In this document: piece by piece, positions 141 to 35,714 of the stretch
Layout of the letters: every line of letters begins with the position of its first letter
Position numbering within the stretch: position 1 is the stretch's first letter
DNA from: Pegethrix bostrychoides GSE-TBD4-15B
GTDB lineage: Bacteria > Cyanobacteriota > Cyanobacteriia > Elainellales > Elainellaceae
Direction of reading: 5' to 3'
Assembly: GCA_019359155.1 (NCBI GenBank)
Contig: JAHHHV010000025.1
Coordinates: 1 to 41,247, forward strand
DNA: 41,247 bases
Notes under the pieces: model-generated
What the model was told of the DNA's origin: nothing
Database searches by the model: none
Seen by the model: only the letters and a program-made list of their open reading frames with translations
Program-made: the position numbers and the translations under genes

Positions 141-309
141 GGTAAGTGATTGCACTAGCAAAACACAATGTGTGACCCTTTATGAAAATTCCTACTTTTT
201 CAAACAACGAAGGAAAGCGTCCCAGTTTTTATATGTCTTTGTTACTTATGAATGTACCGGAAGTGGTGGTTACCCTAAACTTTCTCTAATTGGTCGGCTA
301 ACTACTATG

Positions 310-511
310 TAGACGGACACAGTCTGCCTATCTACCCCTCATTAGCGATATAGACGGACTGCATCCAACTATATCGCCGTTAGAGCTACTTAGGCGGACA
401 GCTATCCGCATATCTGCCCAAATCGGGTATTTAGACAGATAACTATCCGCATATTAGCCCTCATATCCATTTGGGCGGACAAGCTTCAGCAATTCTTTAG
501 ATGAGCTGTCT
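310..511. repeat. Five degenerate 40-41 bp palindromic tandem units
   Basis: The core TAGACGGAC (variants TAGGCGGAC, TAGACAGAT, TGGGCGGAC) starts at 310, 351, 391, 432 and 472, so spacing alternates 41, 40, 41, 40. Most units carry an imperfect inverted repeat after the core, such as GCGGA-cagcta-TCCGC in unit 3 and TAGACGGAC-aca-GTCTGCCTA in unit 1. Unit 2 overlaps a perfect 9 bp stem (345-353 with 369-377). No gene is seen in 1-808. The units are too divergent and too short in the conserved part for a CRISPR. An aged palindromic repeat family or a phased protein-binding array are both possible. Confidence 0.7.
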
Positions 512-632
512 GCCTAGCCAAAGCTCACCAAACGTAAAAATTCTCCCTTCCCACTTGCGCTCAGCCAGAGTTTCGGTTTATGATTCTTCAACTGATTGCG
601 TGAAGTGGTCAGGACACGCAAAAGCTTAAGGC

Positions 633-808
633 GTCGCTGACTAGAAGTGTTGACGCACCGCTAGCCAGCTAACCCGGCCTCCTGATTAGTCCCAGAAGGC
701 AAGGCTGAGTCGATTTTACATCGCGCTCGCTTCGTTTTACACGCATGTGGTTAGGTGACTCTGCGCCTTGAGCTTTCAAACCCATACCAAAAATACGAGG
801 AAAATATC
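633..808 (+). promoter_or_regulatory. Conserved structured leader of the 66-aa protein gene (copy 1)
   Basis: GCTGACTAG (636-644) pairs with CTAGCCAGC (661-669) over nine positions with one A-C mismatch. Inside the 16 nt loop GTG (647-649) pairs with CAC (656-658) around a 6 nt loop. The same geometry recurs at 35360-35393 before the second copy of the gene. Identical blocks shared by both leaders are an 18-mer (633-650), CTAGCCAGCTAACC (661-674) and TTCAAACCCA (775-784), with a looser GTGGTT(A/G)GGT block near 747-756. The hairpin ends 139 nt before the ATG. No promoter was identified confidently, so calling it transcribed leader RNA is inference. Confidence 0.6.
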
Positions 809-1009: not shown

Positions 1010-1091
1010 GCTCAGGCTAGCAGCACTGCCGCTATTAGCAGTACAAAACCGAGTCGGCCTACTCAACGACGGTGCTGCTGGCTAGCTGAGC
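1010..1091. terminator. Nested inverted repeats downstream of the 66-aa gene
   Basis: Directly after the stop codon, GCTCAGGCTAGCAGCAC (1010-1026) is an imperfect inverted copy of 1072-1091, with a 3 nt bulge. Between them lie two smaller hairpins, ACTGC/GCAGT (1025-1042) and GAGT/ACTC (about 1051-1064). There is no clear U-tract, so a factor-independent terminator is not proven. It may serve as a bidirectional end signal between this gene and the converging kdpC, or stabilise the transcript 3' end. Confidence 0.45.
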
Positions 1092-13351: not shown

Positions 13352-14089
13352 CTATTCGGGCTGCCACTGACTGGGAACAGAGATCAGGGCAAAGTAGGGA
13401 ACGACCGCAGGGTCAACCTCGCGAATCGGCAGAATCCGCTGATTGGGCATTGTGGCGCGTTCGATGTAGTGCGCCCGGTCAAGCAGTCCCAGCGTTTCCA
13501 GGACGGCATAAACTTTGGCAAAATTACGCCCCAGCTTCAGGATAATTGCCGCATCCGCAGCGGCTAGCTTTTCCTGCAAAACTTCTGCTGGCAGCGTCCC
13601 TGGCAGCACCATAAATACATCATTGCGATAGGTCAAAGGCGTACCCAGCATGGCCGCATTCGCCATCACTGAAGATACTCCCGGAACCACTTCAGTGACA
13701 AATCGCTCGCTCAGGCGCGTGAACAGATACATGAACGTACCGTAGAAGAACGGATCACCCTCGCAGAGTACGACTACATCACGACCTGCCTCTAGATGCT
13801 CAGCCAGCGTTTCGGCAGCCTGATCGTAATAGGGCTGGGAAGATTGCTCTAACTTAAACGGATACCAGAGCGGCACTTCGATCTGCTTGGGTCGCAGATA
13901 GCCCGCCACAATCGAGCGCGACAGGCTCTTGCCGCCATCGGATACTGGATAGGCCACGACTGGAGCTGCCTGCAACCGCCGCAGCGCTTTTATGGTTAAA
14001 AGTTCTGGGTCGCCGGGGCCAACGCCAATGCCGTAGAGTTTGCCTTTTGACTGGCTAGCTTCTCCCACTTGTCCGATCAGATTGCTCAT
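13352..14089 (-). CDS. cobI: Precorrin-2 C20-methyltransferase
   Basis: SAM-dependent methyltransferase (CobI/CbiL) that methylates C20 of precorrin-2 or its cobalt form. The 245 residues include the family loop YGIGVGPGDPELLTIKALR near the N-terminus, VVLCEGDPFFYGTFMYLF and EVVPGVSSVMANAA. The length is typical. The ATG overlaps the cobH stop by 4 nt (ATGA) and has a strong GAGGAGG just upstream, so translation is coupled to cobH. The sequence alone does not tell whether the cobalt-free or cobalt substrate is used. Confidence 0.95.
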   Translation of the reverse strand: MSNLIGQVGEASQSKGKLYGIGVGPGDPELLTIKALRRLQAAPVVAYPVSDGGKSLSRSIVAGYLRPKQIEVPLWYPFKLEQSSQPYYDQAAETLAEHLEAGRDVVVLCEGDPFFYGTFMYLFTRLSERFVTEVVPGVSSVMANAAMLGTPLTYRNDVFMVLPGTLPAEVLQEKLAAADAAIILKLGRNFAKVYAVLETLGLLDRAHYIERATMPNQRILPIREVDPAVVPYFALISVPSQWQPE

Positions 14090-14715
14090 ATCTCCTCCTC
14101 TTTTGCTAATGCGTTGACTGCTGCTGCCGCCATTGCGCTGCCGCCGCGCCGCCCTTGCAGCGTTATAAACGGCACGCCTCGACTGGCTGCGGCGAGCGCG
14201 GCTTTTGACTCGGCTGCGCCCACAAACCCGACCGGAAACCCCAGAATCAGCGCCGGCTTGGGACAGCCTTCATCTAGCATTTCCAATAGCCGAAACAGCG
14301 CGGTGGGGGCATTGCCGATAGCGACGACCGCACCCGCCAAATCAGCCTGCCACAGATCCATTGCTGCCGCCGAGCGCGTATTGCCAATCTGCTCAGCTAA
14401 GGCCGGAACCTGGGGCGCGTTGAGCGTGCAGATGATGGCGTTATTGGCGGGCAGGCGTTTGCGGGTGATGCCCTCGGCCACCATTTGAGCATCGCAGAGA
14501 ATTGGACAGCCAGAGGCTAAGGCCGCGCGACCCAGGGTGGCTGCTGCCGGAGAAGCTGCCAAATCGCTGACAATATCGGTCATGCCGCAGGTGTGGATCA
14601 GCCGCACAGCGACTGACACCAGATCTGCTGGCAGTCGCTCTAAGTCGACCTCAGCGCGGATCATGCTGAAGGAGCGGCGGTAGATTTCGTTGCCGTCTCG
14701 GATGTAGTCCAGCAT
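14086..14715 (-). CDS. cobH: Precorrin-8X methylmutase
   Basis: CobH/CbiC moves the C11 methyl group to C12 to give hydrogenobyrinate or its cobalt form. The 209-residue protein carries the active-site histidine H41 in RLIHTCGMTD, plus GCPILCDAQMVAEGITRKRL and the GFPVGFVGAAESKAAL segment. The start ATG at 14715 shares one base with the cobG stop (TAATG) and has GGAGG 9 nt upstream, so it is preferred over a start eight codons further upstream in the same frame. Confidence 0.95.
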   Translation of the reverse strand: MLDYIRDGNEIYRRSFSMIRAEVDLERLPADLVSVAVRLIHTCGMTDIVSDLAASPAAATLGRAALASGCPILCDAQMVAEGITRKRLPANNAIICTLNAPQVPALAEQIGNTRSAAAMDLWQADLAGAVVAIGNAPTALFRLLEMLDEGCPKPALILGFPVGFVGAAESKAALAAASRGVPFITLQGRRGGSAMAAAAVNALAKEEEI

Positions 14716-16178
14716 TAGCAGATTCCTCCGCTGCTCCAAGCTTGGAGCTGAACCACAGGCTGCTGGCTGACAAAATCGCGGAAGGATTGCTCTGAATCTG
14801 AATCTGCGGCGCGAGATTGCCGGTAGGCAACCAGCAAATTTGTGAGCTTCTGGGGCAGTTCTGCGGGTGATAGATCAGCCGCAATCAGCCGCCCAAACGT
14901 CTCGCCCAGTCCTGCGTAGAGGCTGTAGCGAGGCGTTGACTGCTCCGGATCGCCCACCAGCGCCAGATCGCTGCTCGTCCGATGCGCGCAAGATTTTGGG
15001 CAACCGCTGAAGTGAATCGTCAGCGGCTCTGGCTGCCCTAGCTGGGCGAGCGCTGCCGCTAAAGCTGCCGCATCTGCCTGAGTATCTGTGGCAGCAGAGA
15101 GGCAGCCCGTCAGGCCAGAGCAGGCCACTAATCCGCCCCAGATCGGATCGTCGCTGAGTCCCAAATCTGCAAGCTGCTGCTGTACGGTCGGTAAATCAGC
15201 CTCAGCAATGTCGGGCAGCAGCAGATTTCGCCAGGGCGTGAGTCGGATGCCGCTGCCGTAGGTTTCCGACAGGTTCGCCAATTGACGGAGCTGCTCCAGG
15301 GTCAACCGTCCCAGCGGTAGGGCGACGCCAATGTAAAACCGCCCGGACTGCCGCTGAGGATGAATGCCTAAATGCCTGTAGGTGGGCAGGATGGCAGGTA
15401 AATCAATCCGCGCTGCCTGATAGGGGCGCAGCTGTTGCAGCAGAGGGCGCTGAGCCTGCAAGACCTGACGCAGTCGAGGTTTCCGCACCAGAGCCGGATC
15501 GACGCAGCCGAGATAGAGTTCAGCAATGGCGGCAACCGCCTCAATGCAGGCCGAAGGCGGTATCAAATAGCAACCGAGCGCCATCTCACTCAGATCAAGC
15601 TGTAGATAGATCTGCTCATTGATTTCTACCCCTCTGAAGAGCAAATCATTCGGCTGCTGAGCCATCGAAACCTGCTCGCCGCCGTCCCAGCCGACGCTAA
15701 ACTTGGGCGAAAGTCCGACCAGTCGCGGCTCGGTTGAAATATAGGCATCCAGCGCCTGCACCAGCGGACGGGTATCTAACAGCTGAGTTGGGTCAATTCC
15801 CGCCGTCGGGCTAGCCATAATATTTCGCAGATGGTCAACGCCCATCAGCGGAGCCGCCAGCTGATCTGCCGCTAGCTGCGCTGAGCTAGCCACAAGGCGG
15901 CGCGGCAAATCTGTCGCCACTAAGCCGCGAATCTGGACATTCGCCCGATTGGTCACATCCACCGCAGCAGCGCCTAAGCGTTCGCTGAAGCTAGCTAAAC
16001 TGCGGCACTGCCGCGCATTTAGCAGACCGCCCGGAAACCGCAGCCTTAGCAGCGCGCCATCTGGAGCGGCGGTTGGATAAAACAGGCCGGGGCAAGGAAT
16101 TGAGCCGGGAGCCGGAGCCGTCTGAAGGCCAAACTGATCGCCAGCTTCCCCTGACGGCTGAACTTGAACAGAGATCAT
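14715..16178 (-). CDS. cobG: Precorrin-3B synthase-like sirohaem protein CobG
   Basis: A member of the nitrite/sulfite reductase fold, 487 residues from the ATG at 16178. The C-terminal cysteine pairs CSGLTGC and GCPKSC are the [4Fe-4S]/sirohaem ligands. CobG is the oxygen-using precorrin-3B synthase of the aerobic pathway, and the same fold is used by assimilatory reductases; the operon supports CobG. The start is placed here because the frame upstream runs through the riboswitch; AGGGA lies about 7 nt before the ATG inside a possible sequestering hairpin. First gene of the operon. Confidence 0.88.
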   Translation of the reverse strand: MISVQVQPSGEAGDQFGLQTAPAPGSIPCPGLFYPTAAPDGALLRLRFPGGLLNARQCRSLASFSERLGAAAVDVTNRANVQIRGLVATDLPRRLVASSAQLAADQLAAPLMGVDHLRNIMASPTAGIDPTQLLDTRPLVQALDAYISTEPRLVGLSPKFSVGWDGGEQVSMAQQPNDLLFRGVEINEQIYLQLDLSEMALGCYLIPPSACIEAVAAIAELYLGCVDPALVRKPRLRQVLQAQRPLLQQLRPYQAARIDLPAILPTYRHLGIHPQRQSGRFYIGVALPLGRLTLEQLRQLANLSETYGSGIRLTPWRNLLLPDIAEADLPTVQQQLADLGLSDDPIWGGLVACSGLTGCLSAATDTQADAAALAAALAQLGQPEPLTIHFSGCPKSCAHRTSSDLALVGDPEQSTPRYSLYAGLGETFGRLIAADLSPAELPQKLTNLLVAYRQSRAADSDSEQSFRDFVSQQPVVQLQAWSSGGIC

Positions 16179-16203
16179 CACAGTTTCCCTGTGCAACGCA
16201 GGG

Positions 16204-16330
16204 ATGCGAGTAGAGTTGCGACTGGTGTTCTGACTTGAGGCGGACGCGAGGCGCGCCTTCACAGTTGCGGCACAGTCCTGGAGTTACACCAGAGTTTCCC
16301 AGTGAGCTTAGCAAGCCTACCACATCGGCT
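16204..16330 (-). promoter_or_regulatory. Cobalamin riboswitch
   Basis: On the minus strand the core of the cobalamin riboswitch is readable: GGGAAACTCTGGTGTAACTC, then CAGGACTGTGCCGCAACTGT, then after a short variable arm AAGTCAGAACACC. These match the conserved GGGAA, GGTGnAAnTCC, CCGCAACTGT and AGTCAGnAnACC elements. Downstream, CCCTG and CAGGG (16187-16203) form a hairpin that covers the AGGGA ribosome binding site of cobG, so control is probably translational. Exact ends of the outer stem are uncertain. Confidence 0.93.
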
Positions 16331-16358
16331 CGGCCAATCTGGCGCAAGGCCAATCTTT

Positions 16359-34388: not shown

Positions 34389-34465
34389 CATGGCAAAAGG
34401 CGATGGTCAGATCGACTAGACCAGATCGAGTAGAATAGCTGTACTGTCCTGAATTGGTTTGTCGC

Positions 34466-35245
34466 ATGATTGCCAAAGAAATTGCTAATCAACAGGAGCC
34501 AGTCGCGCCGTTGGCTGAGGCTCAGCCAGAATTAGCTCAGCCGGAATTAGCTCAGCCAGAGATTACTTTCCCACCCGGCGACCTTTACAGCAACGAACCT
34601 CCCTTGGAAACCTATCTGCACCTGCGTCAGTTGATCTTGCTGCTCACCTGCCTAGAGTGGCACTGGCGCGAGCGAACTGACTATTTTGCGGCAGGCAATC
34701 TCACCGTCTACTACAGCCCCAACCAACGCAAGTCAGAAGACTTTAGAGGCCCCGATCTGTTTGTGGTGCTGAATACTGAATGGAAGCCGCGCAAAAGCTG
34801 GGTGGTTTGGGAAGAAGACGGCAAATATCCCAATGTGATTGTGGAAGTCCTCTCAGATACGACTGCCAAAACAGATCGAGGACTCAAAAAGCAGATCTAT
34901 CAGGATACGTTCCGCACGCCCGATTACTTCTGGTTTGACCCCGATAGTTTGGAGTTCGCTGGCTTTCATTTGGTAGACGGCGAATATCAACCGCTGGTTG
35001 CCAACGAGCAGGGCTGGCTGTGGAGCCACCAGCTTCAGCTATTTCTGGGAGTGCAAGGCCAGCAGCTCCGCTTTTTTACAGCCACAGGTGAACTGGTGCT
35101 CAGCCCTACTGAATCAGCTCACCAGGCAGAGCAGCAGCGGCAGCAGGCAGAGCAACAGCAGCAACAGGCAGAGCAACAGCGGCAGCAGGCAGAGGATTTG
35201 CTGGCACAATATCGCGCTCGGTTTGGGGAACTGCCGGAAGACTAA
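34466..35245 (+). CDS. Uma2/DUF820 family protein with repeated tails
   Basis: A 259-residue protein of the Uma2 family, which is expanded in cyanobacteria and shares the PD-(D/E)XK nuclease-like fold. Visible pieces are GPDLFVVL (first acidic residue), VIVEVLSDTTAKTD (second acidic site) and the lysine-rich KKQIYQDTFRTPDYFWFD. The N-terminus has a 15 bp triplication (34522-34566, AQPEL repeats) and the C-terminus a Gln-rich QQAEQQ repeat from three 21 bp units (about 35131-35193), suggesting a coiled tail. The ATG is chosen over a TTG four codons upstream. The function of the family is not settled. Confidence 0.88.
   Translation: MIAKEIANQQEPVAPLAEAQPELAQPELAQPEITFPPGDLYSNEPPLETYLHLRQLILLLTCLEWHWRERTDYFAAGNLTVYYSPNQRKSEDFRGPDLFVVLNTEWKPRKSWVVWEEDGKYPNVIVEVLSDTTAKTDRGLKKQIYQDTFRTPDYFWFDPDSLEFAGFHLVDGEYQPLVANEQGWLWSHQLQLFLGVQGQQLRFFTATGELVLSPTESAHQAEQQRQQAEQQQQQAEQQRQQAEDLLAQYRARFGELPED
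34522..34566. repeat. 15 bp in-frame triplication in the Uma2 gene
   Basis: GCTCAGCCAGAATTA-type units repeat three times and encode AQPEL tripling. The upstream region (about 34407-34436) also carries a two-copy AGATCGA-type duplication. Confidence 0.75.
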
Positions 35246-35356
35246 CGCGGCGGGCTGAAGATTTTCTGAGTTTGGGCTTGTGCAAATCCTGCTCTGTGCC
35301 GTATGCTTTTCAAACTGGTCAATTCCATTCCCAGTAAAATCTGGGCTTGAGGCGAG

Positions 35357-35513
35357 GTCGCTGACTAGAAGTGTACCACCACAACTAGCCAGCTAACCTA
35401 AGGCTCCGTTCGTCGCGGGGCGCTAGGCTGTGCTGATTTTCGCACACCTTGTTCATACGTGGTTGGGTTATACCGCTGCCTTAAGCCCTTCAAACCCAAT
35501 AGAGGAATCTATC
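35357..35513 (+). promoter_or_regulatory. Conserved structured leader of the 66-aa protein gene (copy 2)
   Basis: The same hairpin as at 633: GCTGACTAG (35360-35368) and CTAGCCAGC (35385-35393), with GTG (35371-35373) and CAC (35380-35382) in the loop. The loop bases differ (TTGACG in copy 1, TACCAC here), while stem and spacing are kept, which points to selection on structure. The 18-mer from 35357, CTAGCCAGCTAACC and TTCAAACCCA (35489-35498) are shared too. The hairpin ends 120 nt before the ATG, against 139 nt in copy 1. Confidence 0.6.
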
Positions 35514-35714
35514 ATGTCATCAGAGTTCAACGAACTGTTGCAGTCTCCGCGTGGCGATTTGCCACAAATCTGGGTGGTGGGCAGCCGCGAGCAGGTGATT
35601 CACATCATCAACGAGTTCTACGTCAAAAAAGTAATCACCGACCGCAGCCAGTTTAGCCCGCTGATTCCAGCTCCGCTCGCTCCCGGCCAATACATGACGC
35701 TGCTGATGCGGTAG
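35514..35714 (+). CDS. Conserved small protein of unknown function, 66 aa (copy 2)
   Basis: Second copy of the protein at 809, exactly 66 residues in both, no gaps. The ATG at 35514 has AGAGGA (35501-35506) 7 nt upstream; the open frame begins earlier, at 35430. Differences from copy 1 are mostly conservative (I/V, K/R, F/Y), with the segments REQV, DRSQFSP and PAP unchanged, so purifying selection is likely. No family recognised. It follows Uma2 by 268 bp and precedes a degenerate repeat array. Confidence 0.75.
   Translation: MSSEFNELLQSPRGDLPQIWVVGSREQVIHIINEFYVKKVITDRSQFSPLIPAPLAPGQYMTLLMR

Follow-up and report, generated by a model that had tools for sequence, protein, structure and literature searches.

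A multicopy leader RNA with hypervariable, patterned hairpin loops precedes a small-protein gene in Pegethrix bostrychoides and other cyanobacteria

The window analysed here is a stretch of 41,247 nucleotides of the cyanobacterium Pegethrix bostrychoides GSE-TBD4-15B (positions 1–41,247 of contig JAHHHV010000025.1). It contains two copies of an element in which a structured leader RNA lies directly before an open reading frame (ORF) of 66 amino acids, at 809–1009 in copy 1 and at 35514–35714 in copy 2, both on the plus strand. A first-pass annotation had described a leader hairpin shared by two loci of the same small gene, and all of the features that it reported are present in both leaders. 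The hairpin of copy 1 (636–669) has a GCTGACTAG/CTAGCCAGC stem with one A·C mismatch, an AA internal loop, a GTG/CAC inner stem, and the loop TTGACG at 650–655. The hairpin of copy 2 (35360–35393), seen in the sequence, in the predicted fold, and by a hairpin-finding script, carries the loop TACCAC at 35374–35379. The two leaders also have in common the 18-mer GTCGCTGACTAGAAGTGT, the 14-mer CTAGCCAGCTAACC, the block GTGGTT(A/G)GGT, and TTCAAACCCA, and the two encoded proteins are 61% identical. Both leaders fold better than dinucleotide shuffles (z = −2.47 for copy 1, with 2 of 200 shuffles as good; z = −3.23 for copy 2, with 0 of 200), and similar leaders stand before dozens more copies in the same genome; therefore, their likeness is not a matter of chance.

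The hairpin is real, but it forms only one arm of a larger structure, which is closed by the outer helix GCTTAAGGC/GCCTTGAGC. This helix, P1, joins 624–632 to 765–773 in copy 1 and 35345–35353 to 35478–35486 in copy 2, as read from the alignment and, for copy 2, also from the fold. In copy 1, P1 encloses the reported hairpin (hairpin 1), hairpin 2 (677–700), whose loop at 685–692 is also variable, a small hairpin P4 (711–723, CGAT-TTTAC-ATCG), and the strand CTTCGT (730–735). The last of these is an anti-Shine-Dalgarno strand, and it pairs as a pseudoknot with the Shine-Dalgarno strand ACGAGG at 795–800; the local pairing was read from the sequence and the helix from the covariation alignment. 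Sense promoters are inferred upstream of both leaders, TTGCGC-18-TATGAT at 555–584 for copy 1 and, from the sequence, TTGTGC-18-TATGCT at 35278–35307 for copy 2. The same motif is found at the same position upstream of copies in several genera, and a strict consensus promoter scan listed none at 555–584.

The element is not confined to two loci, as had been supposed. The genome comprises 5.72 Mb and contains about 40 copies: matches to the 66-amino-acid protein number 44 at E ≤ 1 and 40 at E ≤ 0.001. A covariance model of the leader (R1), built from 50 leaders, gave 47 matches in this genome, and among the 35 matches listed, one is at a contig end and each of the other 34 immediately precedes a protein match. 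In a few copies the leader is lost, or the copy lies at a contig end.

Covariation was evaluated in 50 leaders of less than 90% identity chosen from 103, with locus L162 replaced by window copy 2 (L and G numbers denote loci and genomes of our collection). The counted structure comprised 55 pairs drawn on L050, one of the aligned leaders. Standard pairs occupied 77.4% of the cells, compared with 73.3% in shuffled alignments; 30 of the 55 pairs were changed on both sides, compared with 22.7; and the covariation score was 0.221, compared with 0.160 ± 0.004. None of 500 shuffles reached any of these values. Versions of the structure slid along the alignment scored at most 0.120, a control that somewhat favours the structure because its source is one of the aligned leaders. 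Further pair types were not exceptionally numerous, 108 of the 500 shuffles having as many. Covarying pairs, whose absence was to have spoken against the first-pass proposal, are therefore present. Pairing was highest in the outer helix (99.6% of cells, 5 of 9 pairs doubly changed), followed by hairpin 1 (86.4%, 7 of 13), the helix aligned with P4 (78.9%), and the last hairpin (67.7%). The pseudoknot helix between the inner strand and the Shine-Dalgarno region was paired in 82.1% of cells over seven pairs, four of which were doubly changed. The leader thus has the conserved, covariation-backed Shine-Dalgarno pairing of a translational leader that sequesters its ribosome binding site. Through this pairing, the fold can keep translation low.

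A multicopy, covarying leader RNA that pairs with the Shine-Dalgarno region and is linked to a conserved small protein is well supported by these data. The cis-regulatory role proposed from the sequence is supported by the covarying structure, the conserved pseudoknot strand, and the position of the leader directly before the ORF. No sense-strand match to a riboswitch or leader family of Rfam was obtained at the gathering score, and the RNA family is apparently uncatalogued. One explanation would be that this leader masks the Shine-Dalgarno sequence under the control of a ligand, of temperature, or of the small protein itself, and that the loop varies because it is unconstrained. The Shine-Dalgarno pseudoknot and its covariation, a conserved core around GCTAACC, and a protein that is small, conserved, and without a confident fold relative are all consistent with such control. 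Against this, no leader matched a riboswitch family, nothing points to the ligand sensing or the autoregulation suggested by the first-pass annotation, and the loops are not free: apart from their lengths of 6–8 nucleotides, which follow from the search rule, they show end-base preferences, recurrence in distant genomes, and closure under reverse complementation, as described below. We regard control by a ligand, temperature, or the protein as possible but doubtful.

The differing loop bases, which had been mentioned in passing in the first-pass annotation, proved to be the oddest feature of the element. Hairpin 1 was sought by a script that accepted loops of 6–8 nucleotides closed by G-C, and it was found in 150 of 220 loci; the 70 loci missed comprise contig ends, fragments, insertions, other closing pairs, and leaders beyond the scanned stretch. 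Seven calls were judged false and removed (L018, L032, L098, L162, L219, L225, and L272), leaving 143 loops with 93 distinct sequences. The window's genome has 23 distinct loops among 33 copies, G200 (a genome of another family) 29 among 33, and G001 (a genome of the window's genus) 32 among 33. When 20 leaders of the window's genome were aligned, strong variation appeared at loop 1, at the two positions that follow CAC, and at loop 2, whereas most of the remainder was constant; other variable positions occur in the hairpin 2 stem, close to the 3' end, and about the Shine-Dalgarno sequence. Copies that are nearly the same elsewhere differ in their loops. Ten copy pairs are at least 93% identical outside the loop (five from the window's genome, two from G200, and three from a mixed set), and none of them shares its loop, compared with about 6.6 expected. 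Window copy 2 and L038, at C40 of the same genome, encode identical proteins and carry the loops TACCAC and CTTGTAA, respectively.

The loops are also patterned. They show strong end-base preferences and recur in distant genomes; CTACCAA, for example, is found in nine copies of six genome groups. Y-U-G opens 68 of the 93 distinct loops in the sense or the reverse-complement orientation, compared with a mean of 12.4 in shuffled loops, and 25 loops lack an opening Y-U-G on either strand. The reverse complement of a loop is itself in the set for 22 of the 93, the reverse for none, and the complement for none. A null model that keeps the two bases at each end gives 11.0 expected (p = 0.006). The loops are therefore supported as both hypervariable and patterned.

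In an all-against-all comparison of the copies in the window's genome, the common block of most copies begins either at the promoter region or at an upstream repeat array and ends with the stop codon. The array of copy 1 (295–520, plus strand) is palindromic (TAGACGGAC...TCCG...TATCTACCC), and all of its 14 matches in the genome lie at copies of the element; two types of array were seen, and TAACTA starts both. Similar block limits were found in a set composed mainly of Elainella saxicola copies, in Kaiparowitsia, and in G006, and similarity can extend up to 36 nucleotides beyond the stop codon in copies of G200 and G020. A copy-specific, terminator-like hairpin follows the stop codon of copy 1 (1010–1091, plus strand) by inspection of the sequence, and a strict terminator scan listed none there. 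Many copies were seen by eye, without a count, to have a hairpin of their own after the stop. In eight Kaiparowitsia copies examined (L059, L074, L129, L131, L136, L139, L152, and L154), the stop codon is replaced by TCG, which creates GCGATCGC, the HIP1 octamer, where the common block ends. The frames of these copies read into the flank after an almost identical body, so that their C-termini are flank-derived, and the flanks differ apart from two pairs. The copies sit between other ORFs. An empty-site comparison of one 6.2-kb locus with four relatives yielded three short matches of 66–71% identity in two relatives, which are too distant for this purpose.

Several individual copies have features of their own. 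Upstream of the element at L025, an insertion resembling a miniature inverted-repeat transposable element, with the ends TATAGCAATCCG...CGGATTGCTATA, lies within the repeat array, and similar ends lie near L030. L014, L027 (second copy), L018, and L032 are mosaic, with leader and ORF from different subfamilies or with foreign sequence upstream of the ORF, which suggests recombination among copies as far as can be read from their sequences. An array of clustered regularly interspaced short palindromic repeats (RF01370 repeats; 9–650 of L072 in G006) adjoins one copy of the element.

The copies are dispersed, in several genomes the homologous block of most copies terminates with the stop codon, and the Kaiparowitsia copies read into their flanks. 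These features raise the question of whether the loops are guides of a mobile element, like those of the IS110 bridge RNA or the pairing of exon- and intron-binding sites of group II introns. In this case, the loops should resemble the flanks. Loops were compared with the 260 nucleotides upstream, the leader 3' of hairpin 1, the ORF, and the 200 nucleotides downstream, in both orientations and with k = 5 and 6. The copies tested comprised 33 of the window's genome, 33 of G200, and 40 of loci L099–L155, which are mainly from Elainella saxicola and include a few other species. In none of the three sets did loops match their own flanks better than permuted loops (all p > 0.05). Moreover, L013, L016, L022, and L028 have the same 3' flank and four different loops, and the unit encodes only a small ORF. 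A guide function is thus very unlikely. The same permutation test gave no sign of an intramolecular pseudoknot between loop 1 and the leader 3' of it. Three further candidates were dropped by inspection: pairing between loops 1 and 2; a core site of a tyrosine recombinase, because the two arms are not identical at the internal loop and form pairs as RNA; and a tRNA-like or anticodon loop, as many loops lack U at the second place.

Closure of the loop set under reverse complementation could also mean that the RNAs form a network through kissing contacts in trans between the loops of different copies. Complementary loops should then be common within a genome. Instead, loops complementary over 6 nucleotides made up 12 of 1677 pairs within genomes and 78 of 5826 between genomes, which is fewer within (Fisher p = 0.041), and exact reverse-complement pairs numbered 1 of 1667 within and 30 of 5236 between. 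The results on trans-kissing, and on avoidance of complementary loops, were mixed and mostly null; any avoidance is at most weak, and a trans-kissing network is the least probable of the readings considered here.

We tentatively prefer to regard the element as a translational switch with copy-specific recognition loops, which are most likely read by an antisense RNA from the same locus, although we would put this only a little short of an even balance. The antisense RNA is, we infer, the most economical partner for the loops. Each copy would be an independent transcription unit of promoter, structured leader, and small-protein ORF, in which the leader fold with its Shine-Dalgarno pseudoknot would hold translation down. 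The hairpin tips would serve as recognition loops for an antisense RNA that each copy makes from its own opposite strand and that, like SymR, would have two hairpins; its start may be set by a candidate −10 box just 3' of hairpin 2. Loop pairing would initiate the formation of a sense-antisense complex, which would set the output of the small protein, and the loops would differ so that the antisense RNA of one copy spares the others. A loop set closed under reverse complementation is expected if both strands are transcribed and a U-turn may sit on either of them; the U-turn motif YUNR occurs in the sense or the antisense loop (PMC4485353). In copy 1, the candidate −10 box is TAAAAT on the minus strand (713–718). 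TAnAAT is found at this place in many leaders, with a weak −35, and 46 of the 53 G200 and G020 loci have the extended minus-strand form TGnTAnAAT there.

A sub-threshold match to SymR was found on the strand where this antisense RNA would be made. The leader of L257, in G147, occupies 944–1129 on the minus strand, and its opposite strand, at 1049–1118 on the plus strand, aligns with positions 1–77 of the SymR model RF01809, that is, with the whole model, at 32.4 bits (E = 0.013 and 0.006 in two scans). The match spans hairpins 2 and 1, where the loops and the −10 box predicted the antisense RNA. The consensus tip of SymR, GUG-UUGGCG-CAC, is the tip of hairpin 1 of L070, and CGCCAA, the reverse complement of UUGGCG, is the loop of L214, L217, and L248. 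The match is a lead; it may reflect chance or a shared design.

Several observations weigh against antisense recognition. The SymR match falls below the gathering score of 61 and concerns L257 only; none was found in the other 33 of the 34 superfamily loci scanned, and none in the window leader or nine loci of the family. The extended −10 was not found in 27 loci of G006 and G147, copy 2 of the window has GAAAAT at the place of the candidate box, and the antisense promoter is weak in general, with a mean p of 0.34 for the sigma-70 score over 103 leaders and 15% of them below 0.05. No terminator has been established for an antisense RNA. At 5 nucleotides, loop complementarity is not clearly rarer within genomes (68 of 1677 pairs) than between them (241 of 5826), and the excess of YUNR, found anywhere on either strand in 65 of the 93 loops, is not significant when the loop ends are kept (p = 0.074). 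The structure itself is uneven in the relevant parts: hairpin 2 is paired in 60.1% of the cells of the alignment (7 of 11 pairs doubly changed), and the outer extension of the pseudoknot in 52.0%. In copy 2 of the window the pseudoknot is short, and the predicted local fold places part of the Shine-Dalgarno sequence in a small hairpin.

The small protein has no match in Pfam or NCBIfam at the cut-off and none in PHROGs or PADLOC. Its predicted structure is a small compact alpha/beta fold with a mean predicted local distance difference test score of 83, most core residues exceeding 90. Foldseek gave no confident relative of this model (best E = 0.4), and in VIA-align the best Z was 3.8, with Z ≥ 2 in 208 of 996 chains and Z ≥ 5 in none. 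The protein is under purifying selection, with median ratios of non-synonymous to synonymous substitution rates of 0.15 among the copies of the window's genome and 0.04 and 0.05 in other sets. These properties bear on a special case of the antisense switch, in which each copy would be a private type I toxin-antitoxin system: the protein would be harmful, and each antisense RNA would neutralise only its own mRNA. The evidence for the antisense switch applies to this case as well, including the SymR-like opposite strand of L257, and SibC acts on ibsC via two target recognition domains (PMC8309996). However, PADLOC gave no match, SymE and other toxin families of Pfam were not matched either, and dozens of copies under purifying selection would be an unusual load for a genome. 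We consider a private toxin unlikely.

The protein profile matched 21 of the 36 genomes of the window's family and, over the class, 21 of 291 genomes, 20 of them in the window's family, the window's own genome being included in both counts; matching genomes contain from one to 62 protein copies. Carriers among the best 80 of 114 relatives include Elainella saxicola E1, Drouetiella hepatica, Kaiparowitsia implicata, and the filamentous cyanobacterium CCP2. A more distant query, L063, found relatives in 44 of 145 genomes of the class, and the family profile found 67 copies in G200. R1 matched leaders of G200, G147, G020, and G018 at E values from about 1e-15 to 5e-4, where the median protein identity to the window protein is 28% (40 loci of G200), 35% (13 of G020), and 23% (13 of G147); some of the short matches in this comparison are hairpin 1 in the opposite-strand orientation. 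On sequence grounds, the same RNA precedes distant protein relatives in other cyanobacterial families.

A scan of 17 genomes with R1 gave matches in 11 of them: 83 in G001, 47 in the window's genome, 24 in G019, 21 in G006, 15 in G022, 10 each in G200 and G147, 5 in G023, 3 in G018, 2 in G020, and 1 in G010. G010 has this one RNA match but no protein-profile match at E ≤ 1e-6, and G002, G005, G007, G013, G016, and G017 have neither an R1 match nor a protein-profile match at this threshold. For each genome, no more than 146 first-look candidates were scored. The scan gave two matches in G020, although all four L063-type leaders of G020 that were supplied matched the model; the zeros and low counts are therefore weak evidence.

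Relatives of the window protein were not found in viral contigs, phages, or plasmids, and distant superfamily members were found in cyanobacterial plasmids, in 2 records with a G200-type query and in 12 with the L063 query. None of the six plasmid-borne superfamily loci examined matched the leader model, nor did the relatives of single-copy type, L166, L170, and L171. Homologues without the hairpin, which the first-pass annotation would have counted against its proposal, thus exist among these loci and among a few copies of the window's genome. Therefore, the RNA accompanies the multicopy branches and not every relative of the protein. Of the plasmid-borne members that the leader model did not match, L273 (Trichormus variabilis plasmid D), L276, and L278 adjoin ParG and a replication-related gene, or a tyrosine recombinase.

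In the window, a Uma2-family protein (PF05685) with a Q-rich repetitive C-terminus is encoded at 34454–35245, directly upstream of copy 2. Elsewhere, a cobalamin riboswitch (RF00174, 37.8 bits; 16203–16339, minus strand) overlaps the 5' end of an ORF at 14715–16262 on the minus strand, which is followed by a precorrin-8X methylmutase gene at 14086–14739.

The leader and its protein are a structured RNA family and a small-protein family absent from Rfam, Pfam, NCBIfam, PHROGs, and PADLOC, with up to 83 RNA matches in one genome, and no description of such an element was found among open-licence PubMed Central papers. If the loops are recognition tags, a single cell would contain a natural set of dozens of mutually distinct RNA-RNA recognition pairs on one scaffold. 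Their orthogonality and its evolution would then be directly testable, and they would provide ready parts for RNA control circuits. The element also raises the question of which function of a single small conserved protein would call for dozens of copies with separate tags. A bolder proposal, which we offer as speculation and think improbable as a whole, is a many-locus chromosomal code: dozens of RNA-protein units per genome with private loop pairs read by their own SymR-like antisense RNAs would be diversified, by selection or by a dedicated and even loop-inverting process, so that new copies escape older antisense RNAs. Such units would be selfish, in the manner of addiction or incompatibility systems, and would have spread through several cyanobacterial families without a plasmid.

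Among known systems, the IS110 bridge RNA is also a non-coding RNA beside an ORF with variable loops, but the unit described here contains no recombinase, and its loops are unrelated to the flanks. The type I systems Sib/Ibs and MsoT1/MsoA1, the latter a cyanobacterial candidate, likewise involve a small protein, and variable loops such as those of our element would be accounted for by copy-specific antisense recognition. MsoA1 is predicted to have two hairpin loops and to bind the 3' end of its mRNA (PMC12390103), which is a different site, and the toxins of these systems are described as membrane peptides or proteins (PMC8309996, PMC12390103), whereas a compact alpha/beta fold is predicted here.

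The leader may work like the antisense-controlled leaders of the I-complex plasmids or of SymE, and it is at most a candidate member of either group. The replication control of the I-complex (RNAI or Inc RNA and the rep leader of ColIb-P9, IncB, and IncK) shares with our element a recognition hairpin, a pseudoknot tied to translation, and the loop motif UUGGCG; loops of the UUGGCG/YUNR kind on one of the two strands are present here. RNAI of IncK1 and IncK2 differ by five nucleotides, with the loop bases setting the specificity (PMC10724649), and UUGGCG is named in the title of a ColIb-P9 antisense paper in the reference list of the same article. The I-complex loop is read by an antisense RNA, which in our element is putative. 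The I-complex controls a replication initiator, whereas the 66-amino-acid ORF encodes a small protein without a family match at the cut-off and resides in chromosome-sized genomes, in some of them in dozens of copies, as in the 5.7-Mb genome of the window. In addition, the pseudoknot found here pairs with the Shine-Dalgarno region itself.

SymR/SymE is an SOS-induced locus of E. coli. The synthesis of SymE is repressed by SymR, a cis-encoded antisense RNA, and SymE belongs to the AbrB superfamily (PMC1891008), whereas the protein studied here has no Pfam match at a cut-off. By the gathering score, L257 is not a SymR member (32.4 bits compared with 61), and the match is the only one, below threshold, among 34 superfamily loci. 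Nevertheless, the opposite strand of L257 aligns end to end with the SymR model, with two hairpins, and the consensus tip of SymR is identical to that of L070.
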